Below are positions 1 through 62,065 of a stretch of 64,000 nucleotides of DNA, one piece after another. The first letter of the stretch is position 1, and every line of letters begins with the position of its first letter. The DNA is from Phycicoccus sp. Soil802 (GTDB lineage Bacteria > Actinomycetota > Actinomycetes > Actinomycetales > Dermatophilaceae). Both the position numbers and the translations under genes were made by a program. The stretch is from NCBI RefSeq assembly GCF_001429605.1, contig NZ_LMSS01000005.1:62001-126000 (forward strand), in the 5' to 3' direction. The notes under the pieces are model-generated. The model was not told where the DNA came from, did no database searches, and saw only the letters and a program-made list of their open reading frames with translations.

Positions 1-309
1 CCCGTCGCAGACCATCGCCAGCTGCGCGTCAGCGGGGCCGAATCCCTGGTCCTCGAAGGCCACCCGGGCTGCAGCGTGGGCCCGCTCCTCTGCCGAGTCC
101 TGGGCGCGAGCCGTGACGTACGCGCGCCCGGCCTCGCGCGCCGCGGTCGACGCGGCATACGAGCCGGCTTGAACTCGCGAGACCGTCATCACGAGGTAGA
201 ACAACGGCACCATCAACAGCACGGTGAGGAACACGAACTCCACCACGGCACTGCCGCTGTCGGGCGGGCCGCAGCGTGCGGCCAGCCGACGACGCATCGC
301 AGTGCTCAC
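1..309 (-). CDS. TadE-like pseudopilin, partial (left edge)
   Basis: The 103 visible codons include an intact N-terminus; the C-terminal part lies beyond the window. After a short basic leader there is a TadE-type membrane helix, SGSAVVEFVFLTVLLMVPL (from residue 18), with the conserved Glu, then an Ala-rich amphipathic helix. TadE/TadF proteins are minor pseudopilins of Tad/Flp pili, anchored in the membrane. The GTG start overlaps the TGA of the upstream pseudopilin gene (GTGA at 309-306), which fixes the start and implies translational coupling. TadE and TadF cannot be told apart without the C-terminus. Confidence 0.8.
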   Translation of the reverse strand, partial: MSTAMRRRLAARCGPPDSGSAVVEFVFLTVLLMVPLFYLVMTVSRVQAGSYAASTAAREAGRAYVTARAQDSAEERAHAAARVAFEDQGFGPADAQLAMVCDG

Positions 310-704
310 TGCGCCTCTATGAAGGCATGCCCGACGAGGTCGAAGCCGTCGTCGACACCGAGGGGTCCGAGGACCGGCAGCGGCGCCCGGACCCGGACCG
401 CCACCACCTGCACGCCACCGTCGACGGTCACGCCCGCGGACACGTCCCTCGCGAACCGTGCCGACAGCGACGTCGAGATGAGCGCCCGGGTCCGGGCAGC
501 CCCCTCCTCCGGGCTGGACCCGTCACGCGCCCCGAGGCGCGCACCCTCCGAGGCGCAGGAGATCAACGTGTTCCGCACGTGGAGGGTGAGCCCCACCTGG
601 AGGACCGCGACGAACAGGACCGACACCAGCGCCGAGACGAGGACGAAGTCCGCCACCGCCGACCCGGCCTCACCGTGCGGCCGGAGAGCAGGTACAGGTA
701 CCAC
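306..704 (-). CDS. TadE-like pseudopilin
   Basis: A 132-residue protein with one N-terminal membrane helix (about residues 18-40, GSAVADFVLVSALVSVLF), Asp standing where TadE proteins usually have Glu, then a segment with a lone Cys (NTLISCASEGARLGARDG). This is the layout of TadE/TadF pseudopilins of the Tad pilus. No ATG lies near; the GTG at 704, six bases after the stop of the pilin-like gene, is chosen because it leaves a short leader before the helix. The gene sits between a small pilin-like gene and a second TadE-like gene, at the end of a tadABC operon. A start a few codons further in is possible. Confidence 0.72.
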   Translation of the reverse strand: MVPVPALRPHGEAGSAVADFVLVSALVSVLFVAVLQVGLTLHVRNTLISCASEGARLGARDGSSPEEGAARTRALISTSLSARFARDVSAGVTVDGGVQVVAVRVRAPLPVLGPLGVDDGFDLVGHAFIEAQ

Positions 705-1890: not shown

Positions 1891-2753
1891 CGCAGCACCC
1901 GCTCGTCCTCGGGCAGCCGCCCGACGAAGATCATGATCCGGTATGCCGCGACGGAGGCGACCGCGCCCGCCACCAGGACCAACGTGCCGGTCGAGCTCGC
2001 GTACGCCTGGATGGACTCCGGTCGAGTGCACAACATGCCGAGCACGACCCAGGGCGCGGCGACCGCGAGCCTGGCCGCATTCACCGTCCAGCCTTGCCGC
2101 GCTTCCAGCTCGGAGCGGGTGCGGCTGTCCTCGCGCAGGAAGGTCGACAGCGTGCGGAGGAGCGTGCCCAGGTCGCTCCCGCCAACCTCCCTCGCGATCC
2201 GCAGGGACTCGACCAGCCGATCACCGACGGGGTCGCTCAGGCTCGCCTTCAGTCGGTCGAGGCAGTCGTGGAAGCGCCCAGTGGATCGATAGTCCTCGGC
2301 AAAGACCTGGAAGGCCGGCCGGAGCTCCTCGGGTCCCCGGATCGCCAGCTGGCTCAACGCCTCCGGGAGCGCGAGGCCAGCCCTCACCCCCGAGGTGATG
2401 TTGTCGACGGCGTCCGGCCACAGCTCCCGCAGGTTGGCCCGGCGCCGGCGCGCACGCGTCCGCACGAGGGCAACCGGCGCGTACCCGGCCATGGCGGCGA
2501 AGCAGAGGGCGACCGGCGCAACGCGCGTCGCGGCATACAGGAGGAGTCCGACGAGACCGAACGCCAGCAGGCACGCGGCCAGCAGCCCCCGCGGCCCGAG
2601 CGTCTCGTAGCCGGCCTGGGCGAGCTGGTCGCGCGTGCGGCCCACCAGCGAGACCCGACGGGCGGCTCGGGGCGTGGCACCGGGCACCCAGCAGGCCCAC
2701 CACACGCAGAACAGCCCGCACCCCAGCAGCAGGCCCACGACGATCCCGCTCAT
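1887..2753 (-). CDS. tadB: TadB-type Tad secretion inner-membrane protein
   Basis: A 288-residue type II secretion F family protein: N-terminal helix (SGIVVGLLLGCGLFCVWWAC), two helices at about 60-100, a cytoplasmic domain with LWPDAVDNITSGVRAGLALP, typical of TadB, and C-terminal helices (VAAPWVVLGMLCT; TLVLVAGAVASVAAYRIM). It pairs with TadC as the membrane platform of the Tad pilus. The ATG at 2753 gives a start five bases after the tadA stop; longer open-frame extensions have no family similarity. Unlike the TadB of the locus near 50 kb it carries no fused von Willebrand domain. Confidence 0.88.
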   Translation of the reverse strand: MSGIVVGLLLGCGLFCVWWACWVPGATPRAARRVSLVGRTRDQLAQAGYETLGPRGLLAACLLAFGLVGLLLYAATRVAPVALCFAAMAGYAPVALVRTRARRRRANLRELWPDAVDNITSGVRAGLALPEALSQLAIRGPEELRPAFQVFAEDYRSTGRFHDCLDRLKASLSDPVGDRLVESLRIAREVGGSDLGTLLRTLSTFLREDSRTRSELEARQGWTVNAARLAVAAPWVVLGMLCTRPESIQAYASSTGTLVLVAGAVASVAAYRIMIFVGRLPEDERVLR

Positions 2754-4134: not shown

Positions 4135-7100
4135 ATGCGTCTCCAGCTCACCGTCCTGCTGTCGGCGTCCGACGGCGAACCTCCCGCCGCGCCGGTGGAG
4201 GTCGAGGTGGAGGCCGCTCCCGGGGCCACGGCCGGTCAGCTGGCCAGGGCGCTCGCTGCTGCCTTCGTCGACCCCGCGACCGTCGACCGCACCCCTCCCC
4301 CTGGTCCGACCCTCTCGGTGGGCGGAGCCATCGTCGGGGCGGGGGCGGCGCTGGGGCGGTCACCCCTGGTCGACGGCGCAGCCGTCACCCTCCTCCTCGG
4401 CCCGGCTCCGCTGCCACCACCACGTCCGACGAACCCTCGGGCGCCCGTCGCGGTGGCGATCACCCACGGCCCGGATGCGGGGCGCACGATCGAGCTGGTC
4501 CTCGGCGCACACACACTCGGACGCGGCTCGGAGGCCGCGATCGTGATCGACGACCCGCGGATCTCGCGAGTCCATGCCGTGCTCACCGTCGCCGCCGACT
4601 CCATCACGGTCGCCGACCTGGGGTCGACGAACGGCACCGAGCTGGACGGCGTGCCCGTCTCGGCGCATCCTCACCCGACCCGGATCGGAGCCACCGTCCG
4701 GGTCGGCGACAGCTTGGTGGTGCTCCGCGCGGGAGGCGGCGAACCGGCTGCCGTGGTGGCGCGGGACGACGGCACGTTGACCGTCAGCCGCAGACCACGA
4801 CTCATGGGGGCACCAGGTCGACGGTCGATCTCGCTGCCGGCTCCGCCCGCGGCGCCCCACGCCACTCGCGTGCCGTGGCTACCCATGCTGCTGCCGCTTC
4901 CGATCGCGGGGGTCATGGCGCTGGTCTTCGGCCCGATGATGCTCGCCTTCGCCCTCATGAGCCCAGTTCTCATGGCAGGCAACGTCATCGGCGATCGGTT
5001 GACCACCAAACGCCGGTATGCCACGGAGCACGCGGCCTACAGGCATCGCCGCCGAGAGGCCGAGGACCAGGTGCAAACCGCCTGCCGCGATGAGGCCGAC
5101 CTGTTGGCCCGTACGTTCCCCGATCCGGCGCAGGTCTTGGTGGCCGCCACGACGCCGACGGTGCAGGTCTGGGAACGACGGAGCACCGATCCGGACGCAC
5201 TCACCGCGAGCGTCGGGTGGTGCAACAAACCGGCCTCCGTGCAGGTGGTCAGCGAGATCGGCGCGGACATGCCGGAAGCCCCTCTGCTGCAACGGGTTCC
5301 CTGCGCCCTCCCCCTGGCCGAGCTGGGGGTCACGGGCATCTGTGGTGAGCGCACCGCCGTGATGGGTGCGCTGCGAGCCCTGGTGGGCCAGCTCGTCACG
5401 CTGCACTCCCCTCGCGACCTCGAGCTGGTCCTCGTCACGGGACCGGGTCCCGCCGACCCTGCCTGGTCCTGGGTCGGCCGGCTGCCCCACGTCCGCACCG
5501 CCGACGGGCACCCGCGCCCCGACTGGCTGCTGGCGTTCGAGCAACCCCACACCACACGGGCCGACGCCGCACGGGCCGGCGTCGCCGCGCTCGCGGCCGT
5601 GGTCCGACACCGGATCGCCCACCGCGACGTCGTGGCCGAGGCCCGGTCGGGGGCGCGGACCCTCGTCGTGCTCGACGGGTCCGGCCTGGATGGGCTGCCC
5701 GACCTCGCCACCGTGCTCGAGCACGGCCCATCCGTGGGGATCGTCGTCGTGGCCGTCGCCGACCAGCGGCCCCGACTGCCCTCTGAGTGTCGGGCGGTCC
5801 TCGACCTCGACCTCCCCACATCAGTGCTGCACGTTCCCGGCGCCGCCCCCACCCACCTCGTGGTGGACCGGGTCGGGCCGTGGTGGGCGGACCGGCTGAG
5901 CCGTGGCCTCGCGCCACTGCGCGACGCCACCCCCGCACGCGCGGCCGGCGCGCCTCCGGTCGGGCTCGGGCTCCGCGAGCTGCTCGGTCTGGAGGACCCC
6001 GAGTCGATGGGCGCGACCATCGGCCGCACCTGGTCGGAGAGCCCGGGGAGCACCTCGGTGCCGATCGGTCACACCGGAGAAGGCGCCTTTCGTGTCGACC
6101 TCGCGTCCGACGGCCCGCACGTGCTGGTGGCCGGCACCACCGGTGCCGGCAAGTCCGAGCTCCTGCGCACCCTCGTGGCCTCGCTGGCGGTGCACCGCCG
6201 CCCGGAGCACCTGTCGCTCGTGCTCGTCGACTACAAGGGCGGGGCCGCCTTCCGCGACTGCTCCGCGCTCCCCCACGTCGCCGCCGTGGTCACCGACCTC
6301 GACGAGCACCTCGCCGCCCGAGCCCTCACGTCGCTCCGGGCCGAGCTCAAGCGGCGGGAGCGAGTGCTGGCCGCCGCCGAGGTCGCGGACTTCCGGTCGT
6401 ACCAGTCAGCTTCGGCCTCCGCCTCGAGTCCCCTGCCCCGGCTGGTCGTCGTCATCGACGAGTTCCGGGCTCTCGCGGAGGAGCTGCCCCAGTTCATCGA
6501 CGGCATGGTGGCCTTGGCGGCACTCGGACGATCCTTGGGGATCCACCTGGTCCTTGCCACGCAACGACCAGCCGGCGTGGTCACGGCGGACATCAAGGCG
6601 AACATGAACCTGCGGATCGGGCTGCGGCTGCGCGACCGCTCCGACTCGGTCGACGTCATCGACGCCCCGGATGCCGCGGCACTGGATCCGGGTGCGCCCG
6701 GACGCGCGCTCGCCCGGGTGGCGGACGGAGCGGTCGTTGCCTTCCAGACGGCGTTCGCCGGGGCCAAGTCCGGTGGCACGCGGGAGGCCCCCGACGGCAT
6801 ACGGGTGAGGCGACTGCCGTGGGGTGCGGCGCCGCCGCCGTGGCCGGGGCCCGCACCCGGCCACGGCGATGCCGGCGGCTCCACGGACCTGGCAGCCGTG
6901 GTCGCTGGCGTGTCGGCCGCCGTCGCCAGGACCGGGGCGCGTCGGGCCGCGAGTCCATGGCTCGCGCCACTCCCCCAACGGGTTGACGCTCAGTCCCTGC
7001 CGCGGTCGGGGGACGCCATGCGACTCCCGATCGGCCTCGTCGACGAGCCTGCCCTGCAACGGCAGCGGCCGCTCGAGGTAGCCCTGGACGAGCCAGGTCA

Positions 7101-8484
7101 CTGGGGTTTCGTCGGCGGTCCGGGGAGCGGGCGCAGCACGGCCCTGCTCACGGTGGCGGGATCGGCGACCGTCTCGCACGGCCCGGGAGACCTCCATGTG
7201 TATGCCGTGAGCGGTGGTTCGCTCACGGCGGTCCAGTCCTTGCCCCACTGCGGTGCGCACGTGGGAATCGACGACCTCCCCCGTCTCACCCGGCTGGTCG
7301 CCCGGATGTCGGAGGAGCTGGCCACCCGGCGCGAGCGGCTTGCCACCGCTGGCCACCCGTCGATGGCCCACTGGCGCCGGGTCGACCCGACGACCGCTCC
7401 CGTCCCGGTGGTGCTGTTGGTCGACGACTGGGACCTGCTCGTGCAGCGAGCCGACGACCAGCACGGCGGCCAGGTGGTCACGAAGCTGCTGGGCCTGTTG
7501 CGGGAGGGCGCCGGCCTCGGCCTCACCTGCGTGCTGGCCGGTGACCGGGCGCTCCTGGTCGGTCGGGCCGCCTCCGCCCTGGCCCACCGGGTCCTGCTCC
7601 GGCTGAACGACCCCACCGACCTGCTCCTGGCCGGTCTGCCGCCGCGAGCGGTCCCTGCCGAGCAGCCGGCCGGCCGCGGACTGCTGCTGGACGGCACGGA
7701 GGTCCAGGTCGCAGTATCCGCGGCGTCCGCACAGCAGCCGGCGACGCTCGGGAGGTCGATCGGCGGCGCCGCCGACAGCGGACACAACCGGCCGTGGCGG
7801 GTCGACGCCTTGCCGGAACGCGTGTCCCTGCAGTCGTTGCGGCAGTCGCAGCCACTCGGGACCGACGCGGACGACCTCGTCCTGGTGGGAATGGGTGGCG
7901 ACGAGCTCGCTCCCCGAGGGCTGGGTCCGGGTCGCGACGGGCGGCGGTGGGCCGTCATCGGCGGGAACGGTTCAGGAGTCAGCTCCACCCTCGCGACGGT
8001 CGTGTCAGGCCTGGTGACCACGGGCCGCCAGGTCTGCGTGGTCGCGGTCCCGTCCGCTCCCTGGGAGGTGCTGCGCCAGGACTCGCGAATCCTCTGGTGC
8101 GAGGATCCGGGTCGCATCGACGAGCTCGTGGAGCTGCGGCGGCACGTGCCCGATCTCGCCGTGGTGGTCGACGACGCCGACCAGCTGCTCGACACACCGC
8201 TCGACGCGGCCGTGCGGGGCGTGGCTGCCTCGGTCGACCGCGACCGAGGGCTGGTCGTGGTGGGGGCCAAGGACGACGCCGTGTCCGTGCAGTACCGAGG
8301 GGTGGCGGTCAGCGTGGCACGACACCGCACGGGCATTCTGCTCGGCCCTTCCGGCGCGACGGCTGCCGACCTCCTCGGCGTGCGGGTCCCGGTGGACCGG
8401 CAGGCGCCGCCGGGGCGTGGCTACCTGGTGCGGTCAGGGGCCGCGCTGCCGATCCAGGTCGCCTCGCGTACGGTCAGGAGGTGA
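4135..8484 (+). CDS. FHA domain and triple FtsK/SpoIIIE ATPase, EssC/EccC-like
   Basis: A 1449-residue protein resembling the membrane ATPase of type VII secretion. Order: an N-terminal beta-rich, ubiquitin-like-sized segment (1-100); an FHA phosphothreonine-binding domain (about 115-200, TLGRGSE and DLGSTNGTE); two closely spaced membrane helices (about 250-285); a region ending in VWERRSTDPDAL as in EssC/EccC; then three ATPase modules. The first has an intact Walker A GTTGAGKSELL (about 667), a DYKGGAAF motif and Walker B VVVIDEFRAL (about 770). The second (GGPGSGRST, about 993) and third (GNGSGVSS, about 1275) have lost the catalytic Lys. No WXG100 substrate, EccB, EccD or mycosin gene is adjacent. 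The start is the ATG six bases after a TACCGT hexamer; two upstream in-frame ATG codons would add unrelated residues. Confidence 0.85.
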   Translation: MRLQLTVLLSASDGEPPAAPVEVEVEAAPGATAGQLARALAAAFVDPATVDRTPPPGPTLSVGGAIVGAGAALGRSPLVDGAAVTLLLGPAPLPPPRPTNPRAPVAVAITHGPDAGRTIELVLGAHTLGRGSEAAIVIDDPRISRVHAVLTVAADSITVADLGSTNGTELDGVPVSAHPHPTRIGATVRVGDSLVVLRAGGGEPAAVVARDDGTLTVSRRPRLMGAPGRRSISLPAPPAAPHATRVPWLPMLLPLPIAGVMALVFGPMMLAFALMSPVLMAGNVIGDRLTTKRRYATEHAAYRHRRREAEDQVQTACRDEADLLARTFPDPAQVLVAATTPTVQVWERRSTDPDALTASVGWCNKPASVQVVSEIGADMPEAPLLQRVPCALPLAELGVTGICGERTAVMGALRALVGQLVTLHSPRDLELVLVTGPGPADPAWSWVGRLPHVRTADGHPRPDWLLAFEQPHTTRADAARAGVAALAAVVRHRIAHRDVVAEARSGARTLVVLDGSGLDGLPDLATVLEHGPSVGIVVVAVADQRPRLPSECRAVLDLDLPTSVLHVPGAAPTHLVVDRVGPWWADRLSRGLAPLRDATPARAAGAPPVGLGLRELLGLEDPESMGATIGRTWSESPGSTSVPIGHTGEGAFRVDLASDGPHVLVAGTTGAGKSELLRTLVASLAVHRRPEHLSLVLVDYKGGAAFRDCSALPHVAAVVTDLDEHLAARALTSLRAELKRRERVLAAAEVADFRSYQSASASASSPLPRLVVVIDEFRALAEELPQFIDGMVALAALGRSLGIHLVLATQRPAGVVTADIKANMNLRIGLRLRDRSDSVDVIDAPDAAALDPGAPGRALARVADGAVVAFQTAFAGAKSGGTREAPDGIRVRRLPWGAAPPPWPGPAPGHGDAGGSTDLAAVVAGVSAAVARTGARRAASPWLAPLPQRVDAQSLPRSGDAMRLPIGLVDEPALQRQRPLEVALDEPGHWGFVGGPGSGRSTALLTVAGSATVSHGPGDLHVYAVSGGSLTAVQSLPHCGAHVGIDDLPRLTRLVARMSEELATRRERLATAGHPSMAHWRRVDPTTAPVPVVLLVDDWDLLVQRADDQHGGQVVTKLLGLLREGAGLGLTCVLAGDRALLVGRAASALAHRVLLRLNDPTDLLLAGLPPRAVPAEQPAGRGLLLDGTEVQVAVSAASAQQPATLGRSIGGAADSGHNRPWRVDALPERVSLQSLRQSQPLGTDADDLVLVGMGGDELAPRGLGPGRDGRRWAVIGGNGSGVSSTLATVVSGLVTTGRQVCVVAVPSAPWEVLRQDSRILWCEDPGRIDELVELRRHVPDLAVVVDDADQLLDTPLDAAVRGVAASVDRDRGLVVVGAKDDAVSVQYRGVAVSVARHRTGILLGPSGATAADLLGVRVPVDRQAPPGRGYLVRSGAALPIQVASRTVRR

Positions 8485-9342: not shown

Positions 9343-9583
9343 GGCCCGGGCGCGGAAGGCGCGCACGCGGCATACCGAGGTCTGCGGGTCGGTCCTGCGC
9401 GCGGGGACGCGTGGTCCGAACTGCATGGAGGTGACGCGGTTCGTCCGACATGTGACCAACACCTCACTGTTACCCCGATGAAATGTCGTGCCGAGGGTGT
9501 CCATTCGAGCGTGGATGCGTCAGGCTGGAACAGAAAGCCGCGGCAACCCGTTGGCAGAAGTGCGTCCACCCCCTCAAACTGGG

Positions 9584-10099: not shown

Positions 10100-11593
10100 T
10101 CAGGCGGAGTCCCTCCCCAGTGGTCGAAGCCGCGCGATGAAACGCACCCGCGTACCGCGCGGCTTTGCTGCGTCCCAGGCGATCCGGCCGCGCAGGTCCT
10201 GCACGAGCGACTGCACGATCTGGGTGCCGAGCCCCGACCCGCCCGGCTTGAAGTCGGCGGGCAGGCCCGCGCCGTCGTCGGTGATCGTCACCGTGAGCAG
10301 CTCGTCGCCGCGGTCGTCGGCCGACCGCTCCGCCTCGATGTCCACGGTGCCGCCACCGGTCTCGGCGAGGCCGTGCTCGACGGCGTTCTGCACCAGCTCG
10401 GAGAGCACCATCGCGAGCGCCGTCGCGTCCTCGGCGCGCAGCGTGCCGAACGACCCCCGCACCTGGGAGGTGATCGGGTGCTCGACCTTGGCGACCTCGG
10501 TGATCGCCTGCAGCCCGCGCACCGCGATGTCGTCGAAGTCCACCAGCTCGTCGAAACCCTGGCTCAGCGTCTCGTGCACCAGCGCGATCACCCCGACGCG
10601 ACGGACCGCCTCGTCCAGCGCCGCCCGGCCGGCCTCCCCCTCGGGGAGCCGCCGGGCCTGCAGCCGCAGCAACGCCGCGACGGTCTGGAGGTTGTTCTTC
10701 ACCCGGTGGTGGATCTCGCGGATCGTCGCGTCCTTGGTGAGCAGCTCGAGCTCGCGCCGACGCAGCTCGGACACGTCGCGCAGGAGCAGCAGCGCCCCGA
10801 CCCGGATGCCGCCCTCGGTGATCGGGATGGCGCGCATCGAGACGCTCGCCCCACGTGAGGTGACCTCGGTGCGCCACGGGGCCCGGCCGGTCACCACCAG
10901 GGCCAGGGACTCGTCGACCGGCGACTCGTCACGCAGGAGGTCGGCGACCACCTTGGCCAGCAGCTCCCCGATGACGTCGCCGACGTGGCCGAGCCGGTGG
11001 ACGGCGGAGAGCGCGTTGGGGCTGGCGTAGGACACGATGCCGTTGACGTCGAGGCGCATGACGCCATCACCGACCCGCGGCGCACCACGCCGCTGACCAG
11101 TCGGGGCGGAGCTGTTGGGGAACTCGCCCGCCGCGATCATCCGCGCCAGCGCGTCGGCGAGGGCCTGATAGGTCAGCTCGAGCCGGCTCGGCGTCCGCAT
11201 CGCCGCAAGATTGGTATGCCGCGTGATCACCGCGAGCGCGCGCCCCTCCCGCACGACGGGGATGGCCTCCTCGCGGACTGGCATGTCGTCGCGGAAGATC
11301 GGGTCCTTCTCGCGCACGATCCGCTGGTCGAGGTAGGCCTGGTCGAGCAGCGACTGCCGGCCACGGTGGGTCCGGCGACCGACGACGTCCTCGAAGAACA
11401 CCATCTGGCCGGTGGTGGGCCGCACGTGCGCGACCGCCAGCCAGCCCTCGAGGCCACCCGGCACCCACAGCACGAGGTCGCCGAAGGAGAGGTCCGAGAT
11501 CAGCTGCCAGTCACCGACGAGCAGCTGCAGCCACTCGACCTCTGCGGGGGCGAGGTCGGTGGCGGACTGGAGCACCTCGTTGAGGGTGGGCAC
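10100..11593 (-). CDS. pdtaS: PdtaS-type sensor histidine kinase
   Basis: A 497-residue cytosolic kinase with no membrane helix. An N-terminal GAF-like H_kinase_N domain (about 10-150) is followed by a PAS domain (about 165-285), a HisKA_2 helix with phospho-acceptor motif EIHHRVKNNLQTVAALLRL (about 295-315) and an ATPase domain (LSELVQNAVEHG, DDGAGLP, GSGLGTQIV). This order matches PdtaS (Rv3220c type), which phosphorylates the ANTAR regulator PdtaR; no PdtaR gene is in the window. The GTG start is supported by TAGGCT exactly six bases upstream on the minus strand, again leaderless. In actinobacteria PdtaS often lies near WhiB1, as here. Confidence 0.9.
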   Translation of the reverse strand: MPTLNEVLQSATDLAPAEVEWLQLLVGDWQLISDLSFGDLVLWVPGGLEGWLAVAHVRPTTGQMVFFEDVVGRRTHRGRQSLLDQAYLDQRIVREKDPIFRDDMPVREEAIPVVREGRALAVITRHTNLAAMRTPSRLELTYQALADALARMIAAGEFPNSSAPTGQRRGAPRVGDGVMRLDVNGIVSYASPNALSAVHRLGHVGDVIGELLAKVVADLLRDESPVDESLALVVTGRAPWRTEVTSRGASVSMRAIPITEGGIRVGALLLLRDVSELRRRELELLTKDATIREIHHRVKNNLQTVAALLRLQARRLPEGEAGRAALDEAVRRVGVIALVHETLSQGFDELVDFDDIAVRGLQAITEVAKVEHPITSQVRGSFGTLRAEDATALAMVLSELVQNAVEHGLAETGGGTVDIEAERSADDRGDELLTVTITDDGAGLPADFKPGGSGLGTQIVQSLVQDLRGRIAWDAAKPRGTRVRFIARLRPLGRDSA

Positions 11594-19677: not shown

Positions 19678-19684
19678 GAGGGGT

Positions 19685-25259: not shown

Positions 25260-25266
25260 GTCACGT

Positions 25267-36990: not shown

Positions 36991-39900
<2,910 letters not shown>

Positions 39901-48114: not shown

Positions 48115-48173
48115 CCAGCACCACGCGGCATACCCACCACAGCGACCGGGTGTGCCGCGGACGCACCGCATGC

Positions 48174-51124: not shown

Positions 51125-51128
<4 letters not shown>
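49149..51128 (-). CDS. von Willebrand A domain fused to TadB
   Basis: A 659-residue fusion. A signal peptide (about 1-30, ALLTAGLVGLLAAVPALAA) is followed by an extracytoplasmic beta region, a VWA domain (about 85-280) with a complete metal site (DTSGSMG at 92, DGETALYDG, ILSDGGDT), a membrane helix (about 335-355, ILGIAIGAVFLALMVLVISL) and then a TadB-type GSPII_F domain (about 400-650). The VWA part would face the cell wall and bind a protein or matrix ligand, while the TadB part forms the assembly platform. GTG start overlaps the tadA stop (GTGA); ATG at 51125 is the alternative. Confidence 0.92.
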
Positions 51129-52491
<1,363 letters not shown>

Positions 52492-52495
<4 letters not shown>

Positions 52496-53697
52496 CGGTT
52501 ACCTCCACGCGACAGGGACCAGCGGCTGGCCTTGGGGGACTGCTGTGACGTCCCGGGTGCGTCGGCCGCACCCGTCGGGGCGTCGGGGACACGGATGAAG
52601 CGGTCGGCGAGGTCGCGCAGGGCGACGCTCACCGCGTGCTTCGGCTCGTCGAGGATGATCGGCACCCCACGGTTGACCGAGGCCGGCACCGCGGTGCTGT
52701 TCGGCACCATCACGGCGATGTCCTGCTTGATGGCCGCGACGACGTCCTCCGGTCGGAGCCCGACCTTCGCGTCGGAGCGGTTGAGCACGACAAGGCGTGA
52801 CTCCTTCTTGTTGCCGAGGAGGTCGAGGGTGTCGAGGGTGAGGCGCAGGTTCTTGACCGCGGGGATGTCGAGGGTGGCGATCAGGATCAGCAGGTCGCTG
52901 TCATCGAAGGCCGCCAGGACGTGCGAGGTGAAGGCCGGCGGGGTGTCGAGGATGACGTAGTCGTAGTGCCGCTTGGCCACGCGGACGAGCTCGGCGACCG
53001 TGGTGCCCGGCACCCGGTCCGCGTCACTCGGCTCGGCCGGCGCGCTGATCGCCTCGAGGCCGCTGTCGTGCTTGGTGACGACGGCCTTGATGGCCTGCTC
53101 GTCGATGTTGCCGGCCATGCTGACCAGGTCGATGATCGAGTTCTGGGGCAGCATCTGCAGGCTGATGCCGACGTCGCCGAAGGCGAGGTCGAGGTCGATG
53201 AGCAGCACTCGCGAGCCGGTAGAGGCCAGGTAGGCACTGAGGTTCGTCGCGAACGTCGTCTTGCCGACGCCGCCCTTCGCCGAGAACACCGTCACGACCC
53301 GGGCCGTCTTGGCGCCGACGCCCCCCGACTCTCCGGCGTGCCCGTGCACGCGGGTCGAGAGGTCGCGGCTGCGGCGCGCCGCATCGGCCAGACCGGTGAC
53401 GTCGTCGGAGGTGATGACCTCGCGGATGCCGGCGCGCAGGGCCTGGCCCAGCACGGCCACGTCGATGCGCCGGCGCAGGAGGATGACCCCGAGCTCGGGG
53501 CGCTCCACGCGGCAGAGCTCGGCGAACTGGCAGGCGGCATCCATGTCGACGTCCGGACCGATCAGGACGAGCAGCTCGGTCGGGTTGTCCTCGAGCGCCC
53601 GGACCATGGTGGCCTGGGTCTCGAAGCGGGTGATCGCACCCACCGCGAAGTCGTAGCGCTCGGTGGCGCCGGGGTCGGCGTCCCACAGGAGGGTCAT
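52492..53697 (-). CDS. cpaE: CpaE/TadZ localisation protein of the second Tad locus
   Basis: A 401-residue protein: an atypical receiver domain (about 1-120) without a clear phospho-acceptor, then a MinD/ParA domain with an intact deviant Walker A SAKGGVGKTTFATNL (about 140), DLDLAFGDVGISLQML and DYVILDTPPAF. CpaE/TadZ places the Tad machine on the membrane or at the pole. ATG start with AGGAG upstream. The intact P-loop contrasts with the degenerate one of the CpaE-like protein at 32460. Confidence 0.93.
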
Positions 53698-53706
53698 GAC
53701 GCACTC

Positions 53707-54486
53707 CTACTTGGCGGAGAAGAGGGTGGCTTCGGAGATGACCTTACCGAGGTCGATCTTGGGGTCCGTGCCACGCAGTGCGGCGTACAGGTTGCCGGTC
53801 TGGATCCCGTGCACCAGGCGGGTGGCGTCAGCGGGCGACACCGCGACGGTCATGAGGGCACCCCGGACCGGAGCCGAGCCGGCGGAGTCCTCCCCCGCGT
53901 CGGTGGGGGCCTGCGTCGGGGTGAGCGAGGCCTCGCCCATCGCGATGACCAGGACGTCGTCGAGGAGGACGCGGGTCTGCTGGCTCAGCTTGGTGGCGTC
54001 GGCGCCGTCCTTCACTGCCGTCTCGGTGGGCGTGTAGGTGTCGAACAGGACGACCTTGGACCCGGGCGTGAGGAAGGTGCCGACGCGGGCGGGGTCAGCC
54101 AGGGCGATGGACACCGCGACCTGACCGGCCGGCACGTCGATGGCCTTGGTGCCCACGGGCTTGGTGCCGAAGCGGTCGGCGAGCACGTACTCGCCGGGTT
54201 GGATGTCCGAGAGGGCGTACAGCCCACCATTCGAACCGGTGACGCCCTGCAGGGCACCGAGCGGCACACCCTTCGCGGCGACCGAGGTCTTGATGATCAG
54301 GCCGCTCTGCACCGAGTCCTTGAGCGTCGTGCCAGCGGGCACGACGGACTTGACCACATACACGGACGATGGGTCCTGCGCAGCGATGGCCCTGTCGTCA
54401 GCACCCTTGGCGTACATCAGCACGGCGACCACGCCGAGCAGTGCCACGACGGCGGCCGCGAAGATGGCGACGATTCTGCGTCCCAC
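53707..54486 (-). CDS. cpaB: CpaB/RcpC Flp-pilus assembly protein
   Basis: A 259-residue protein with one N-terminal membrane helix (IVAIFAAAVVALLGVVAVLM), an SAF domain (VVKSVVPAGTTLKDSV) and an RcpC-like region (GQVAVSIALADPARVGTFLT; SKVVLFDTYTP). CpaB works outside the membrane in stabilising the pilus. GTG start at 54486, preceded by AAGGGAATC. It lies between the flp genes and cpaE in the order usual for actinobacterial Tad loci. Confidence 0.9.
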   Translation of the reverse strand: MGRRIVAIFAAAVVALLGVVAVLMYAKGADDRAIAAQDPSSVYVVKSVVPAGTTLKDSVQSGLIIKTSVAAKGVPLGALQGVTGSNGGLYALSDIQPGEYVLADRFGTKPVGTKAIDVPAGQVAVSIALADPARVGTFLTPGSKVVLFDTYTPTETAVKDGADATKLSQQTRVLLDDVLVIAMGEASLTPTQAPTDAGEDSAGSAPVRGALMTVAVSPADATRLVHGIQTGNLYAALRGTDPKIDLGKVISEATLFSAK

Positions 54487-54542: not shown

Positions 54543-54788
54543 CTACGGGTTGAAGATGCTCGACGGCACGTTGTAGAGGTCGCTCACGTTGTGCCCGAAG
54601 GCCACGACGGAGACCACGATGACGATGGCGATGAGGCCCACCATCAGGCCGTACTCGACAGCGGTGGCTCCGTGGTCGCCCCGGTGGACTCCGGGGCGAC
54701 CACGGTTCAGCCAGCTGTCGGAGGAGCGCAGCCGCACTCCCGCGGCGGACCGGCCGAAGGGCGCGATACGAGCGAGTCGTGCGGTCAT
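54543..54788 (-). CDS. Flp-type pilin with long leader
   Basis: An 81-residue Flp family pilin. The processing junction and helix read GDHGATAVEYGLMVGLIAIV (about 37-56). The leader before the cleavage site is longer than in the other two pilins and Arg-rich, and the mature C-terminus (HNVSDLYNVPSSIFNP) differs from theirs, suggesting a distinct or minor pilin. ATG 54788 with AGGAGGAAGC upstream, the best ribosome site of the three. Confidence 0.9.
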   Translation of the reverse strand: MTARLARIAPFGRSAAGVRLRSSDSWLNRGRPGVHRGDHGATAVEYGLMVGLIAIVIVVSVVAFGHNVSDLYNVPSSIFNP

Positions 54789-54828: not shown

Positions 54829-54845
54829 GGATTTTCTTGGTTACG

Positions 54846-55019
54846 TCAGATGCTGGTGGCGGTGTTCTTGAACAGCGTGCTGAGGTTCGTGCCGAGCAGC
54901 GCAACGGCGACGATGATGACGATCGCGATGAGGGCAACCATGAGGCCGTACTCGACGGCGGTCGCACCCTTCTCGCGGGAGACGAGCTTGGTGTGAAGCT
55001 TGGCGGCGAACTTGTGCAT
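54846..55019 (-). CDS. flp: Flp-type major pilin candidate (copy 1)
   Basis: A 57-residue Flp pilin. A short basic leader ends at REKG, followed by ATAVEYGLMVALIAIVIIVA and a short tail TNLSTLFKNTATSI. Prepilin peptidase cuts after the Gly; the conserved Glu five residues on and the Tyr are present. It differs from the next copy (55315-55488) at ten of 57 residues. ATG with GAAAGGACT upstream. It shares a diverged upstream DNA element with the next copy, indicating tandem duplication of gene plus control region. Confidence 0.93.
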   Translation of the reverse strand: MHKFAAKLHTKLVSREKGATAVEYGLMVALIAIVIIVAVALLGTNLSTLFKNTATSI

Positions 55020-55100
55020 GTGAGTAGTCCTTTCGAGACCAACGGGCGCGGTGGCCGTGTGCCCCGCGGTGAGAAGACTCGCAGTTCCGAGGACGGTGGG

Positions 55101-55169: not shown

Positions 55170-55283
55170 GCCACCGAGTCACGCGCGTAGGGGACGTGCG
55201 AATCGGCCGCCTCCGGTGCGGGGCTGGACGCGGGTTGCGTCGTGGTCCCCTGGGTGGAGGCGGCCGATCACGGTCACGAGTGG

Positions 55284-55304
55284 GCGACCGGTGCGCGCGG
55301 TCGC
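55284..55304 (-). terminator. hairpin after flp copy 2
   Basis: GCGACCG and CGGTCGC form a perfect 7-bp stem with a 7-base loop, eleven bases beyond the stop of the upstream pilin gene on the minus strand. It would separate the transcripts of the two flp copies. Confidence 0.5.
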
Positions 55305-55314
55305 GAGGAAATGG

Positions 55315-55488
55315 TCAGACGCTGTTGGCGGTGTTGTTGAACAGCGTGCTGAGGTTGGTGCCGAGGAGCGCCACGGCGACGATGATGACGATGGCGATGA
55401 GGGCGACCATCAGGCCGTACTCGACGGCGGTCGCACCCTTCTCGCGAGCAGCGAGCGCGGTGTTCAGCTTTGCCACGAACTGGAGCAT
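55315..55488 (-). CDS. flp: Flp-type major pilin candidate (copy 2)
   Basis: A 57-residue Flp pilin: leader MLQFVAKLNTALAAREKG, then ATAVEYGLMVALIAIVIIVA and tail TNLSTLFNNTANSV. Cleavage is expected after Gly18. The mature sequence is the same as copy 1 except for three tail residues. ATG with AGAAAGGGGC upstream. It is separated from copy 1 by a 295-bp region that holds its terminator and the control element of copy 1. Confidence 0.93.
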   Translation of the reverse strand: MLQFVAKLNTALAAREKGATAVEYGLMVALIAIVIIVAVALLGTNLSTLFNNTANSV

Positions 55489-57083: not shown

Positions 57084-58498
57084 CCCGGTCCTTCTCCCGC
57101 GCCCTGGGCATTTTCGGGTATGCCGTGGCGCTCCTCGTCGGGTTCGGTTTCGGCACGGGGCGGTACCAAGAGGTCGACACCTGGTGGCACCTGCGGGTGG
57201 GCCGGCACATCCTCGACACCCACCAGCTGCGCGGCACCGACCCGTGGGCGGCTTTCGCCGTCCACCCCTACACGGCCACCCAGTGGCTGCCCGAGGCCGT
57301 CACCGCGTGGCTGGTTGACCTCACCGGGATGGGGGCAGTGGTCTGGCTGCGCTCCCTGGCCAGCCTCTCCCTCGTCGTGCTCCTCTATCTCACGGCGCGG
57401 CAGTCGGCCGGGCGGCTGGCCTCCTCCGCGGCGGCGGCCATCGGCGTGCTGGGCTGTGGGGCCGGGCTCAACCCCCGTCCCCAGCTCGTGAGCTTCGTCT
57501 GCTTCGCCGTCGTCGTGCTCGCCTGGTCCCGCACGGTGCGCGACGGCCGTCCTCGCTGGTGGCTCATCCCGGTGTTCTGGCTCTGGGGGTGCAGCCACGG
57601 CCTGTGGACCTTCGGCCTCCTCGTCAGTGCCGTGTTCCTGGCTGCACTGGTCGTCGACCCCGTGACCCGGCCCGACCGGCGACGCACGGCGCAGCTCGCC
57701 GGGCTGGTGGCCGCGTGCGCCGCAGTGGTCGCGCTGACCCCGCTGGGCCCGGCCCTCCTGCTCACCCCCTTCGACGTGGCGGCCAACGCCGCTGGGCTCG
57801 CCGAGGAGTGGCGGGCGACACCGGTCAACAACGTCTTCGCGATCGCGGCCCTGGGCATGGGGGTCGCCACGCCGCTGGCCTGGCTCGTGACCCGGCACCG
57901 CCCGCGGGTCTGGGAGCTGGCCCAGCTCACCCTGTCGCTCGGCCTCACCCTGGTGATGTGGCGTCTCGTGCCGCTCGGGGCGATCCTGGCGGCGCCCCTG
58001 CTCGCCACGGCGATCCAGCCGCTGGTCGGTCGAGCCCGCGAGGGCTGGTCGAGGCGCGAGCGCCGGGCCGTGCTGGCGTCGTGGGCCGCCGCACTGGCGC
58101 TCGCCACCGCCCTGGCGGCCGGCTCCGCCGGCCCCACCGCGCAACAGTTCCCCGGCAAGGTCGGCGCGGTGGACTCGGCGCTGGCGGAGCTGCCGGCCGG
58201 CACCGTGGTGCTGGACGACTTCGGCCTCAGCGGCTGGCTCCTGTGGAAGCACCCGACGCTCGAGCCCGTCATCGACCTCCGGGTCGAGCTGTACTCCCCC
58301 GAGCACATCGCCGCCTACCGCCGGACCGAACGCGTCCAGCCGGGCTGGCAGGACCTGCTCACCGAGACCCGGCCCGCCTACGCGGTGCTGCGCACCGACT
58401 CCGCGCTGAGTGGCGCGCTGCAGGACCGGCTCGGCTGGGCGACCGTCGCGACCGGCGGCGACTACACGCTGCTGCGCGCCCCGGCCGGACCCGGCTGA
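57080..58498 (+). CDS. polytopic membrane protein, paralogue of the previous gene
   Basis: A 472-residue protein with the same layout as its neighbour: about ten helices, first-loop motif DTWWHLRVGRHILDTHQLRG, PYTATQWLPEAVTAWLVDL, a LNPRPQLVSFVCFAVVV segment and a C-terminal soluble part with VVLDDFGLSGWLLWKHP. The two C-terminal domains share the pattern GWLL followed by P, then E-YSPEHI or ESYAPDHV. GT-C-like by impression only. GTG 57080 overlaps the neighbour's stop (GTGA), so the paralogues are translationally coupled and probably act together. Confidence 0.72.
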   Translation: MTRSFSRALGIFGYAVALLVGFGFGTGRYQEVDTWWHLRVGRHILDTHQLRGTDPWAAFAVHPYTATQWLPEAVTAWLVDLTGMGAVVWLRSLASLSLVVLLYLTARQSAGRLASSAAAAIGVLGCGAGLNPRPQLVSFVCFAVVVLAWSRTVRDGRPRWWLIPVFWLWGCSHGLWTFGLLVSAVFLAALVVDPVTRPDRRRTAQLAGLVAACAAVVALTPLGPALLLTPFDVAANAAGLAEEWRATPVNNVFAIAALGMGVATPLAWLVTRHRPRVWELAQLTLSLGLTLVMWRLVPLGAILAAPLLATAIQPLVGRAREGWSRRERRAVLASWAAALALATALAAGSAGPTAQQFPGKVGAVDSALAELPAGTVVLDDFGLSGWLLWKHPTLEPVIDLRVELYSPEHIAAYRRTERVQPGWQDLLTETRPAYAVLRTDSALSGALQDRLGWATVATGGDYTLLRAPAGPG

Positions 58499-58514: not shown

Positions 58515-60281
58515 TCAGCGCGCCGCGACCAGCAGGTCGGTCCCCTCGCCCACCCGCTGCCAGCGGCTGCCGGCGCGGATCAGCACCTCGTGGTCGTCGG
58601 TAGTCACGACCAGCCCCCGCTCGCCGTTGACCGTAGTGATCGTCCGCGCGCCGGCGATCTCCGGCCCGGCCGCAATGGGTCCGCCCAGTGGCACCAGCCA
58701 GGGCCGGATCACCTGGCTGGACGTCAGTCGTCCGAGGACAGCCACCGTGGCGTCGTCGACCCAGACCAGGTCGCGCGCCAGGGACAGCGTCGGGGCCAGC
58801 CGCAGCGGCGTGGAGAGCGAGGCCGGGAGTCCGTTGGGCTGCCGCACCACCCCCGCGACGTCGACCCGCGGGCTCGAGCCGTCGCGGTCGGTGGTCACGA
58901 CCGCCACCCGCTGTCCGTCGGGCGAGAGCCGCAGGCTGACCACCGTACGGCCGCTCAGCCAGTCGGCCGAGACGGTCTGCGGGGTGGACTTGGAGGCGTC
59001 TCCCGGGTCGGCCGCCGCGTTCACGACCCAGACCCTGGTGGCGCCGTTGGCGCGACCCGCGACCCACAGGACGTCCTCGCGGTCGTAGGTCGGATGGGTC
59101 AGCATCGTGCCGGGCGCGGTGAGCTGGACCTGGGTGGTCCCCCGCCAGCGGATCAGCTGGGCCCGGTCGCCTCCCACGGCAGCGATCTCCTGGCCGTTGC
59201 GCGACATGGCGAGGTAGGCCCAGCCCGGTTGGACCGTCGGGAAGCTGGCGGCCTGGGGTGGTGGTGGGCGCTGCCCGTTGTCGCCGACGTCGTCCGGGTC
59301 GACCGCGACCAGCGTGGTGCCGACCCGCAGGACCGGCTTGACCAGGGGGTCCGACGGTGTGGGGAACCCGAGCAGGGACAGGCTGTCGACCGTGCTGTCG
59401 CCATTGGGCATCTGCAGGTCGGCGCCCTCGAGCTGGAGGGCCACCCGTTCCACCCCTGGGGCCTGGGTGACGGTGGCGAGGAACTGGGCGCCGAGGTTCT
59501 GCCGCTGGCCGGGGTCGTTGCCAAGCTTGGTGGCCGAGAGGTCCACCTTGGCCGTGCCCGACGCGACCGTCACGGCGTCGACCGCGAGCTTCGTGCCGGC
59601 CGGGATGTCGGTGCGCACTGCCCCCTTGAGGTAGTCGGGCACCCCCGCCAGGAGGGAGCGCGCGAGCCGGGTCGCCAGGCCGGTGCCGAGGGGCAGCCAC
59701 CGGATGTCGGGGACGAGCCGGTGGTCGCCGGCCGACACGTAGTAGATCCGGAACGGGTCGTAGAGCCGGTCGAGGTCGGCCTGGCTCAGCCAGGTGCCGA
59801 AGTTGTCGGGCATCTGGCTGATCCGCCACTCGCCTCCCGTGCGCTCGAGCCGGAACGTCACCTGCACCCTCGACCGAGGCGACAGCTCCTGGTAGCGCCC
59901 GGCGCCGTCGATGCGGGCGATGGCCTTGGCGACGGCCGTCACGGTGTCGTCGTTACTGGGCTTGTAGGTCACTTCCGAGTCGGACCCGAAGACGACGACC
60001 GACGAGTCGGGCCGCCAGGTGCTCTGCGGTCCGCTCGCGAGGTAGGACCGGGCGACCTGATAGGAGTCGTCACTGGCCGCGGCGGCGCGGATGAAGCCCT
60101 GTACCACCTGCTGCGGTGAGGAGCCCGGCGCCACCGGGTTGACCTCCACCCGCACCTCGTTCTCCTGCACCGACCCGACCTCGAGCCCGGGCTGGATCGC
60201 CGAGCTGGTGGACAGCCCGCCGCAGGCGGTGACGGCGAGCACCGCGCCCGTAGCCAGCGTCGCGGCATACCGGCGCCTCAT
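58515..60281 (-). CDS. lpqB: lipoprotein LpqB
   Basis: A 588-residue lipoprotein: signal peptide with lipobox LAVTACGG (Cys20), a GerMN domain (about 175-320, including AVDAVTVASGTAKVDLSATK) and a C-terminal beta-propeller-like region. LpqB interacts with the sensor kinase MtrB and modulates MtrA activity; the lpqB gene follows mtrB throughout actinobacteria. ATG 60281 overlaps the mtrB stop (60278, ATGA). Confidence 0.95.
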   Translation of the reverse strand: MRRRYAATLATGAVLAVTACGGLSTSSAIQPGLEVGSVQENEVRVEVNPVAPGSSPQQVVQGFIRAAAASDDSYQVARSYLASGPQSTWRPDSSVVVFGSDSEVTYKPSNDDTVTAVAKAIARIDGAGRYQELSPRSRVQVTFRLERTGGEWRISQMPDNFGTWLSQADLDRLYDPFRIYYVSAGDHRLVPDIRWLPLGTGLATRLARSLLAGVPDYLKGAVRTDIPAGTKLAVDAVTVASGTAKVDLSATKLGNDPGQRQNLGAQFLATVTQAPGVERVALQLEGADLQMPNGDSTVDSLSLLGFPTPSDPLVKPVLRVGTTLVAVDPDDVGDNGQRPPPPQAASFPTVQPGWAYLAMSRNGQEIAAVGGDRAQLIRWRGTTQVQLTAPGTMLTHPTYDREDVLWVAGRANGATRVWVVNAAADPGDASKSTPQTVSADWLSGRTVVSLRLSPDGQRVAVVTTDRDGSSPRVDVAGVVRQPNGLPASLSTPLRLAPTLSLARDLVWVDDATVAVLGRLTSSQVIRPWLVPLGGPIAAGPEIAGARTITTVNGERGLVVTTDDHEVLIRAGSRWQRVGEGTDLLVAAR

Positions 60282-62065
60282 CGGGGACGCCCCGGGGCGG
60301 TGGGGGTATGCCGCGTGCTCCCCACCGGGCGCGCGGCGCCGGTCTGGACGATGGGGCGCACCGGGGCCTGGGGCTCCGCAGGAGGTTCGGTGAGGTCGTC
60401 GGGGCGCAGGGGTAGTGGCGCCTCGACGATCGGGACACCGGCGCGGCGCGGCAGGGTGAGCCGGAAGCAGGACCCCTCTCCGGGCTCACCCCACGCCTGC
60501 AGCCAGCCGTCGTGCAGCCGCGCGTCCTCCAGCGAGATCGCCAGGCCGAGCCCGGTGCCGCCGGTGGTGCGGGCCCGCGCCGGGTCGGCCCGCCAGAACC
60601 GGTTGAACACCAGGGCGCCCTCGCCAGGGCGCAGGCCGACGCCGTGGTCGCGGACCGTGACGGCCGCGGCGGTCTCGTTGACCGCGATGGCGATCTCGAC
60701 CGGACGGCCCTCGCCGTGCTCCAGCGCGTTGACCACGAGGTTGCGCAGGATCCGCTCGACCCGGCGGGCATCCATCTCGGCGTCACACTGCCCGTCCGAG
60801 GAGACCGTGATGGTGCTGCCCCAGCGGTCGGCGATCGGCTGGGCGGACTGCACGGCGCGCGCCACCGTGGCCCGCAGGTCGGTGACCTCCGAGTCGAGCG
60901 CGGCGGCCCCGGCGTCGAATCGGCTGATCTCGAGCAGGTCGGCGAGCAGCTCCTCGAACCGGTCGAGCTCGTTGTGCAGCAGCTCGGCCGACCGGGACAC
61001 CGCGGGGTCGAAGCCGGTCCGCGAGTCGTGGATCAGGTCGGCGGCCATCCGGATGGTCGTCAGGGGGGTGCGCAGCTCGTGGGACACGTCGGAGACGAAG
61101 CGCTGCTGCACCCGCGAGAGGCCTTCGAGCTGGCGGATCTGGGTCTGCAGGCTGTCGGCCATCTCGTTGAACGACTTGGCCAGCCGGGCCAGGTCGTCCT
61201 CGCCGCGGGCCCGCATCCGCTCGTTGAGCCGGCCGGAGGCGAGCCGCTCGGCGACCACGGCGGCCCGGCGCACCGGGGAGACCACCTGACGGGTCACCAC
61301 CCAGGCGATCACCCCGACGAGGAACACCAACGCGAGCCCGCCGATGAGGAAGGTGCGGGTGATCAGGTCGAGGGTGGCCTGCTCGCGCTGCATCGGGAAC
61401 ACCACGTACATGTCGTAGCGGCCGGCCAGGGGCGGCTCGACCTGCGAGCCGACGATGACGGCCGGCACGGTGTTCTCGGTCTGCGGGTCGGTGATGCCGA
61501 TCAGCGTCACCTGCTGCCGTCGGGGGTCGTCCCGGACGGCCTCACGCAGGGCGAGGGGCACGACGGTCAGGCCGATCTCGCCGCTGGAGATGGTGCGAAT
61601 GGTCGTGTTCGAGGTGTTCTCGAGGCCCCGCGTCAGCACGAGGTAGCGCTCGTTGTCGCCGCCGGCCGAGGCGGCGCTCTTGATGGCCTGGCTGGCCAGC
61701 ACGTTGAGGTCGGCCTCGCTGCTGGTGCGGTCGCTCTCGTCGAAGGTGGCCTGGACCTCCGTGGTCAACCGGGAGGTCTCGGTCTGCGCCGACTCGATGC
61801 GGTCCTGCTCGAGGCCGTCCGAGATCGAGGAGAACAGGTAGGAGCCGAGCAGCAGCACGACGACCAGCCCGAGCAGCATGGTCGTGGACACCACGCGGAA
61901 CTGCAGGGAGGCCCGCCACATGTGGGCGGCGGTCCGCGCCCAGCGGGCGGCATACCGGCGAGCCCGGCCGAGGAACGACCGGAGTGCACGCGCGCCCTGG
62001 GCGCGGTGGTCGGAGAACCGCGGTGTCGGCGTCCGACCAGGCCTCGGACCGGCCGACTCGGACAT
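60278..62065 (-). CDS. mtrB: sensor histidine kinase MtrB
   Basis: A 595-residue membrane kinase: TM1 (about 54-76, VVSTTMLLGLVVVLLLGSYL), an extracytoplasmic domain (about 77-225), TM2 (about 232-252, FLIGGLALVFLVGVIAWVV), a HAMP domain (VVSPVRRAAVVAERLASGRL), the HisKA helix with SHELRTPLTTIR (His about 329) and a complete ATPase domain (NLVVNALEHGEG, DHGVGLRPGE, GGTGLGLAI). Partner of MtrA; controls cell-wall metabolism and division. ATG 62065, two bases after the mtrA stop. Confidence 0.97.
   Translation of the reverse strand: MSESAGPRPGRTPTPRFSDHRAQGARALRSFLGRARRYAARWARTAAHMWRASLQFRVVSTTMLLGLVVVLLLGSYLFSSISDGLEQDRIESAQTETSRLTTEVQATFDESDRTSSEADLNVLASQAIKSAASAGGDNERYLVLTRGLENTSNTTIRTISSGEIGLTVVPLALREAVRDDPRRQQVTLIGITDPQTENTVPAVIVGSQVEPPLAGRYDMYVVFPMQREQATLDLITRTFLIGGLALVFLVGVIAWVVTRQVVSPVRRAAVVAERLASGRLNERMRARGEDDLARLAKSFNEMADSLQTQIRQLEGLSRVQQRFVSDVSHELRTPLTTIRMAADLIHDSRTGFDPAVSRSAELLHNELDRFEELLADLLEISRFDAGAAALDSEVTDLRATVARAVQSAQPIADRWGSTITVSSDGQCDAEMDARRVERILRNLVVNALEHGEGRPVEIAIAVNETAAAVTVRDHGVGLRPGEGALVFNRFWRADPARARTTGGTGLGLAISLEDARLHDGWLQAWGEPGEGSCFRLTLPRRAGVPIVEAPLPLRPDDLTEPPAEPQAPVRPIVQTGAARPVGSTRHTPTAPGRPR

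Follow-up and report, generated by a model that had tools for sequence, protein, structure and literature searches.

Why does one short word recur so often in a stretch of actinobacterial DNA, and what might it do there? The question is raised by 64,000 nucleotides of Phycicoccus sp. Soil802 (assembly GCF_001429605.1, contig NZ_LMSS01000005.1, positions 62,001–126,000 of the forward strand; the whole stretch is hereafter the window), in which GGCATAC or its complement GTATGCC occurs 33 times against 1.98 in dinucleotide shuffles, and the longer GCGGCATAC/GTATGCCGC 20 times against 0.27. A first-pass annotation had reported at least 33 copies of the shorter word and at least 20 of the extended one; all of its positions proved exact (plus strand: 154, 2532, 6796, 9369, 13246, 17044, 22088, 26608, 27961, 29360, 32496, 34226, 34717, 38599, 42546, 45493, 48127, 52085, 60264 and 61949; minus strand: 1941, 5016, 7200, 11214, 19683, 25265, 25503, 32023, 36758, 41168, 44886, 57118 and 60306), and its hand expectations of about 6 and fewer than 1 were conservative. 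Almost all of the copies (31 of 33) extend to the 8-mer CGGCATAC. By predicted genes, 20 lie in frame as TAT GCC, 8 in other registers (including CGG CAT ACC at 11214 and 41168) and 5 are intergenic or cross a predicted gene edge, a partition that the annotation had described in outline.

The excess holds across the genome that contains the window (G000; 4.29 Mb in 9 contigs, the window being C5:62001-126000). GCGGCATAC occurs 1,290 times in the whole genome (646 forward, 644 reverse), compared to 10 occurrences (6 and 4) of the same word read backwards, which served as the control. The annotation had proposed a k-mer count against a Markov model; using an order-2 model on a 2.05 Mb sample (100 stretches, ~1.98 Mb, plus the window), the best core was CGGCATAC with 1,101 copies observed against 29 expected, while GCGGCATAC had 639 against 8.4. 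The preferred context of the core was C-[A/G]-CGGCATAC-C.

Within this sample, for which a simple gene finder of our own predicted 1,846 genes, CGGCATAC was placed 840 times in coding sequences (CDS), across all six registers, 246 times between genes and 15 times on gene edges, with an intergenic density (0.92 per kb) about twice the coding density (0.47 per kb). Synonymous shuffles, which permute codons within each gene and keep the protein and the codon usage without keeping codon pairs, yielded 67 CDS copies, a 12-fold excess for the genome. TAT-GCC was the commonest register (458 of 840 CDS copies), leaving 382 copies in other registers. TAT is rare in these genes, as had been noted (906 codons, compared to 10,686 TAC), and 458 of the 906 TAT codons, together with 70 of the 149 ATA codons, lie inside CGGCATAC. 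Because the word occupies six registers, is twice as dense between genes and exceeds synonymous shuffles 12-fold, it is a DNA-level signal. A shuffle that preserves codon pairs would by construction fix TAT-GCC in place, and since the synonymous shuffle keeps no codon pairs, it is the copies in other registers and between genes that carry the answer: the annotation had held that amino-acid sequence alone was insufficient and that its claim would fall if the excess vanished outside Tyr-Ala codons, and the 382 other-register copies and the 246 intergenic copies bear it out. Codon context, one of the causes it had offered, is refuted as the origin of the excess. The register with ATG (complement GT-ATG-CCG) accounted for 44 CDS copies.

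The word is also strict. Most one-mismatch neighbours of CGGCATAC occurred at or below expectation (in CDS overall, 1,120 against 1,320 in synonymous shuffles), and CGGCGTAC, one step away, was depleted in genes (131 against 295). Above the shuffles were CGGCATCC (330 against 243), CGGCACAC (109 against 78), CGGCCTAC (153 against 130) and CGGCATGC (164 against 144).

Copies in G000 are arranged by strand. The two strands were balanced in every sampled contig with copies (contig totals), and the strand imbalance per 20-kb stretch was 0.40, compared to 1.00 ± 0.14 for random strands, such that orientations are more even than chance. Neighbouring copies had opposite orientations in 693 cases and the same orientation in 309. 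Gaps between same-strand copies had a coefficient of variation (CV) of 0.657 (random placement, 0.925 ± 0.024), with 9.5% of these gaps <1 kb, compared to 23–35% for 40 control 8-mers. Similar values were found for Knoellia-type loci (184 sites; CV, 0.65; imbalance, 0.44) and for a sample of the CGGCATCC dialect described below (113 sites; CV, 0.74; imbalance, 0.09). The avoidance on the same strand, in combination with the balance between strands, hints at an action of each copy over a few kilobases on one side only, which would keep both orientations in use along the chromosome. Close inverted pairs (within 45 bp) were more often tail-to-tail (−,+; n = 29) than head-to-head (+,−; n = 12), and 21 of the 29 tail-to-tail pairs were intergenic. 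Between tandem genes, copies lean towards the stop of the upstream gene (38, 30, 25, 17 and 15 by fifths). As convergent regions were not enriched, a terminator role is at most hinted at.

At orthologous sites the word is conserved well beyond its surroundings. Against a background measured at ~79% nucleotide identity, CGGCATAC was unchanged in 365 of 476 comparisons among eight Knoellia-type loci (22% for other 8-mers) and in 124 of 200 among five Pedococcus-type loci (21%). Towards G144 and G146, two congeners that carry the word weakly, 33 of 91 sites were unchanged (20% for other 8-mers), and towards eight Phycicoccus-group loci (seven Phycicoccus and Nostocoides sp. Soil756), 0 of 547 (15%), with one-step replacements by CGGCATCC (67 times) and CGGCCTAC (50 times). 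None of these counts is independent of the others, because the same sequences enter several comparisons and are compared in both directions. G144 and G146, both of the window's genus, possess few CGGCATAC and raised CGGCGTAC (865 and 1,011 copies), a pattern that may be decay or a dialect shift under way.

A comparison with related Intrasporangiaceae, also proposed by the annotation, was made for 186 genomes of the Intrasporangiaceae/Dermatophilaceae. Genomes were counted as clearly positive from 80 copies upwards, provided that the count was also three times that of the control; 112 (32 genera) qualified, with 6 intermediate and 68 at chance. Two genomes are poor species inside word-bearing genera (G008 of g4, 9 copies; G114 of g42, 27 copies). 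Counts in 184 genomes sampled from the order's other families were ≤48 and similar to controls as judged by eye; outside the order, a few loci of 12–22 kb were examined.

Variants of the word mark other members of the family. Among the 74 genomes not clearly positive, CGGCGTAC was raised, by eye, in 9 (1,359–4,185 copies; up to 1,125 in the others) and CGGCATCC in 2 (3,619 and 3,949 copies). Five further CGGCATCC genomes (2,099–4,480 copies) also pass the CGGCATAC threshold, and two g46 genomes had slightly raised CGGCATCC (1,210 and 1,336). The unrelated word CGAAGGGGG was present in 797–1,939 strand-balanced copies in all 16 g27 and all 3 g36 genomes, which lack CGGCATAC, and in ≤80 copies in the other 167 genomes. 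At one intergenic site (L115:13705-13790, G053), four CGAAGGGGG follow each other in 22-bp tandem steps. None of the four words was clearly raised in 41 of the 186 genomes, which may harbour other words.

Synonymous shuffles of 40-kb samples indicate that these dialects exceed codon usage as well. CGGCATCC occurred in CDS 26 times in G178 (6.0 in shuffles; 17 more intergenic) and 37 times in G034 (5.4; 3 more intergenic), CGGCGTAC 19 times in G090 (3.9; 7 more intergenic) and 33 times in G002 (9.1; none intergenic), and CGAAGGGG 16 times in G053 (3.2; 12 more intergenic). G022 (56% GC) was excluded, with just 3.2 kb of 40 kb called coding, and gene calls were incomplete for G011 (25 kb of 40 kb) and G103 (28 kb of 40 kb). 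On a quick ComEC tree (66 rows, one gene), the rows of g3, g5, g6, g7 and g35, in which CGGCGTAC is raised, form one group with Leekyejoonella (5 CGGCATAC in 22 kb), with G084 separate, and CGGCATCC arises twice, in G178 and G018 beside Intrasporangium and in G034 and Ornithinibacter beside Phycicoccus. As read from this single-gene tree, and with CGGCATCC arising twice, the dialects appear to follow phylogeny.

Genes that could serve DNA uptake are widespread in the family: ComEC was matched in 180 and TadE in 181 of the 186 genomes, and comEA adjoins comEC in G000. Since genomes lacking the word have these genes too, they make uptake possible without proving it. As a discriminator the machinery was rejected, with ComEC and TadE near-universal and the nuclease pair discussed below in every genome tested; gene content around comEC did no better (19 loci with and 9 without the word; of the groups in at least six loci, the best was in 7/19 against 0/9).

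The excess, strictness, strand pattern and conservation of the word, its dialects and the presence of com and tad genes are observed, and from them we infer, by analogy, that CGGCATAC is probably a self-DNA recognition word functioning like the DNA uptake sequences (DUS) of Neisseriaceae and the uptake signal sequences (USS) of Pasteurellaceae, with uptake, receptor, drive and polarity belonging to the inferred part. A Tad/Flp-type competence pilus with ComEA/ComEC would carry a receptor preferring word-bearing DNA; DNA of kin would be taken up and recombined more often, replacing copies without the word; the word would accumulate wherever the protein sequence tolerates it; a change of receptor would shift the word and give rise to genus dialects; and each copy would act on one side over a few kilobases, retaining both orientations along the chromosome. 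Of the options offered by the first-pass annotation (an uptake, Chi-like or chromosome-organising site, a methylation-linked bias or a codon-context effect), uptake fits best and a Chi-like site remains; codon context falls away and a polar organiser is unsupported.

For Neisseriaceae, the cited passages of Frye et al. 2013 (PMC3630211) describe eight DUS dialects with copy numbers in the thousands and a distribution that largely agrees with phylogeny, as well as inverted pairs, two dialects in one genome and DUS-free relatives; passages of PMC2346458 add that there is no general orientation bias. The present word resembles the DUS, as described there, in its high copy number, even orientation, presence between genes and in inverted pairs, scarcity of one-mismatch copies, single-base dialects, two dialects mixed in one genome and word-free family members. 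It differs in its high-GC actinobacterial host, in the unrelated CGAAGGGGG of other genera of the family, in being known here from sequence alone and in the pilus genes, which are of the Tad/Flp type: the type IVa prepilin motif (N_methyl, PF07963) was matched in 4 of 186 genomes and not in G000, ComP not being searched for by name. Since the known receptor class was not found, the claim is limited to a word that works like a DUS and does not extend to DUS membership; a Tad-type receptor in place of a type IV minor pilin is a possible candidate. With the USS (PMC7811141), for which divergent dialects and a predicted receptor, ComN, have been described (PMC12616744), the word shares, to the extent of those descriptions, a scale of about 9 bp, inverted pairs (at gene ends in the USS, mostly between genes here) and dialects within one family; the receptor predicted for the USS belongs to the type IV minor pilins, of which there are hardly any matches in the present genomes. 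Same-strand self-avoidance, examined in the present family and in E. coli, is marked in the present genome. USS flanks are A/T-rich, unlike those of the word. A precedent among actinobacteria is Micrococcus luteus, in which, according to the cited passages, tad genes are required for transformation (PMC4322843), sharing the pilus gene class and comEA/comEC with the present family; the term 'uptake sequence' has no occurrence in that paper.

Several observations weigh against a DUS-like function. In seven other CGGCATAC genomes (154 sites) the strand pattern was weak (CV, 0.87 compared to 1.00 ± 0.07 at random; imbalance, 1.16 compared to 1.01 ± 0.38), and in the CGGCGTAC sample (59 sites) it was absent. 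Convergent intergenic regions were not enriched for the word, though hairpin pairs are mostly intergenic. Word density was 0.0–0.4 sites per 5 kb in 10 bins below a GC of ~0.66 and 2.8–3.4 at GC ≥0.70, and because it climbs smoothly with GC, the scarcity in low-GC DNA, itself a proxy only for recently acquired DNA, may be partly a matter of composition. The machinery does not track the word, as ComEC and TadE also occur in genera without it, and the known or predicted receptor class (ComP and ComN, both type IV minor pilins) is the one represented by PF07963 in so few genomes. The gene for a VWA–TadB protein in the window was matched in 85 of 186 genomes, some over the TadB part only, and in 11 of 12 g46 genomes, which lack CGGCATAC; the window's Tad cluster was thus rejected as the determinant of the word. 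CGGCGTAC in G084 was only twofold over synonymous shuffles (13 against 6.2; none intergenic). At Knoellia/Pedococcus sites, CGGCATCC was found in 3 of 32 comparisons with G034, 1 of 13 with G178 and 21 of 111 with two Ornithinibacter-type metagenome-assembled genomes, such that dialect words are mostly at new positions and switching in place, confined to a minority of sites, was rejected as a general route. Finally, no documentation of uptake or transformation in the family was among the matches listed from the open-licence PubMed Central literature, where the one paper listed was incidental by its title.

The chief rival, which we regard as unlikely, is a Chi-like site, at which a helicase-nuclease (AdnAB or a RecBCD relative) would read one strand, stop degrading and load RecA. 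Chi of E. coli is GCTGGTGG, and the present word is likewise short, non-palindromic, frequent and probably directional; an action confined to one orientation would account for the directional spacing and for the avoidance on the same strand, and dialects would stem from changes in the enzyme. Two large neighbouring frames with PDDEXK_1 domains, which we take to be AdnAB-like, were found in 22 of 22 genomes tested, equally with and without the word. RecC (PF04257) had no match in 10 of 11 members of the window's genus, G000 included, yet was matched in 15 of 16 g27 genomes, which lack CGGCATAC, and a RecBCD-Chi identity was therefore rejected for G000. Known Chi favours the leading strand, whereas strands were balanced in all contigs sampled here. 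Neither strand balance (imbalance, 1.16 compared to 1.01 ± 0.37 at random) nor same-strand avoidance (CV, 0.91 compared to 0.89 ± 0.08) was seen for Chi in 300 kb of E. coli (85 sites); in the same test the CV of CGGCATAC in G000 was 0.66, compared to 0.94 ± 0.02 at random. The hairpin pairs and the lack of a surplus of one-mismatch copies resemble uptake words more. In g4, RecC was matched in G008, which has few copies of the word, and not in 4 other genomes.

Doubtful to a greater degree is the binding site of a hypothetical nucleoid or chromosome-organising protein, distributed evenly along both strands. The even spacing over the sampled genome would agree with it; a polar form of the organising site that the annotation had offered, akin to the FtsK-orienting polar sequences (KOPS), is unsupported, as no contig with copies displayed strand polarity and imbalance was below random (origin not located), and copies in nearly all stretches are not matS-like either. 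The site of a conserved organiser would not usually vary by single letters, or give way to an unrelated word, within one family, and most copies lie in genes with rare codons, which suggests a benefit to the DNA copy over the cell. Least plausible, and very improbable, is a bias (of codon context, of mutation or linked to methylation) that involves no recognised site; it would account for the predominance of TAT GCC and is opposed by the excess over synonymous shuffles, the other registers, the intergenic excess, the abrupt change from word-bearing to word-free genera inside one family and the finding that most one-step neighbours are not in surplus.

In the portions of the literature covered here, uptake sequences have so far been described for Neisseriaceae and Pasteurellaceae, the families for which uptake words are named in the cited passages of TerminatorNet, an analysis of frequent words in the terminators of many prokaryotes (PMC13020248). 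No actinobacterial uptake word was among the matches listed in the open-licence PubMed Central literature (subscription journals and preprints lay outside its scope), and a search by sequence string had no title on genome words of these bacteria among the matches listed. If CGGCATAC does function like a DUS, uptake words would have arisen once more, in actinobacteria, where a single family would hold several dialects and no fewer than two unrelated words, and there would be an independent case in which to ask why such words evolve, by molecular drive or as a selected species barrier. It would flag possibly transformable genera, and a Tad-type competence system would have to contain a DNA receptor able to read sequence; the dialect map predicts that DNA with the matching word transforms better than DNA with a neighbour's word. 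The more far-reaching proposal, that actinobacteria, which are Gram-positive, possess an uptake language of their own, with a Tad-pilus system, an 8-bp word, single-letter dialects, its complete replacement by the unrelated CGAAGGGGG in two genera and a one-directional action that balances orientations every few kilobases, hangs evenly in the balance.

Coordinates of the word, of Tad/Flp genes in the window and of carriers of the unrelated word
Feature	Position	Strand	Basis
CGGCATAC copy (core)	153..160	+	exact match
CGGCATAC copy	1941..1948	-	exact match
CGGCATAC copy	2531..2538	+	exact match
CGGCATAC copy	6795..6802	+	exact match
CGGCATAC copy	7200..7207	-	exact match
CGGCATAC copy, outside predicted genes	9368..9375	+	exact match
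CGGCATAC copy, CGG CAT register	11214..11221	-	exact match
CGGCATAC copy	13245..13252	+	exact match
CGGCATAC copy	17043..17050	+	exact match
CGGCATAC copy; complement GT-ATG-CCG over predicted start codon 19685	19683..19690	-	exact match, gene calls
CGGCATAC copy	22087..22094	+	exact match
CGGCATAC copy; complement GT-ATG-CCG over predicted start codon 25267	25265..25272	-	exact match, gene calls
CGGCATAC copy	25503..25510	-	exact match
CGGCATAC copy	26607..26614	+	exact match
CGGCATAC copy	27960..27967	+	exact match
CGGCATAC copy	29359..29366	+	exact match
CGGCATAC copy	32023..32030	-	exact match
CGGCATAC copy	32495..32502	+	exact match
CGGCATAC copy	34225..34232	+	exact match
CGGCATAC copy	36758..36765	-	exact match
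CGGCATAC copy	38598..38605	+	exact match
CGGCATAC copy, CGG CAT register	41168..41175	-	exact match
CGGCATAC copy	42545..42552	+	exact match
CGGCATAC copy	44886..44893	-	exact match
CGGCATAC copy	45492..45499	+	exact match
CGGCATAC copy, outside predicted genes	48126..48133	+	exact match
CGGCATAC copy	52084..52091	+	exact match
CGGCATAC copy	57118..57125	-	exact match
CGGCATAC copy, inverted pair with 60306	60263..60270	+	exact match
CGGCATAC copy, inverted pair with 60263	60306..60313	-	exact match
CGGCATAC copy, outside predicted genes	61948..61955	+	exact match
TadC-like T2SSF gene of the Tad/Flp pilus operon; candidate uptake machinery (putative role)	48229..49149	-	PF00482
VWA and TadB-like T2SSF gene	49149..51125	-	PF13519, PF00482
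TadA-like secretion ATPase	51125..52495	-	PF00437
Putative CpaE/TadZ-like ATPase, named from its place in the operon	52492..53697	-	PF13614
RcpC/CpaB pilus assembly protein	53707..54486	-	PF16976
Flp pilin	54543..54737	-	PF04964
Flp pilin	54846..55019	-	PF04964
Flp pilin, near-alike to the pilin at 54846..55019	55315..55488	-	translation only
TadE-like minor pilin	63012..63524	+	PF07811
CGAAGGGGG carriers	G052-G067 (g27), G091-G093 (g36)	both	whole genomes; example loci L115, L116

A few stretches of G000 are without GCGGCATAC. Four of them are below the usual GC and are perhaps islands: C1:1-20000 (L009), C2:360001-380000 (L037), C3:320001-340000 (L053) and C7:420001-440000 (L103). L021, likewise without GCGGCATAC, is of usual GC. 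Within the window, the Tad/Flp operon spans positions 48229-55488 and includes three Flp pilin genes in tandem (54543-55488), of which two closely resemble each other.

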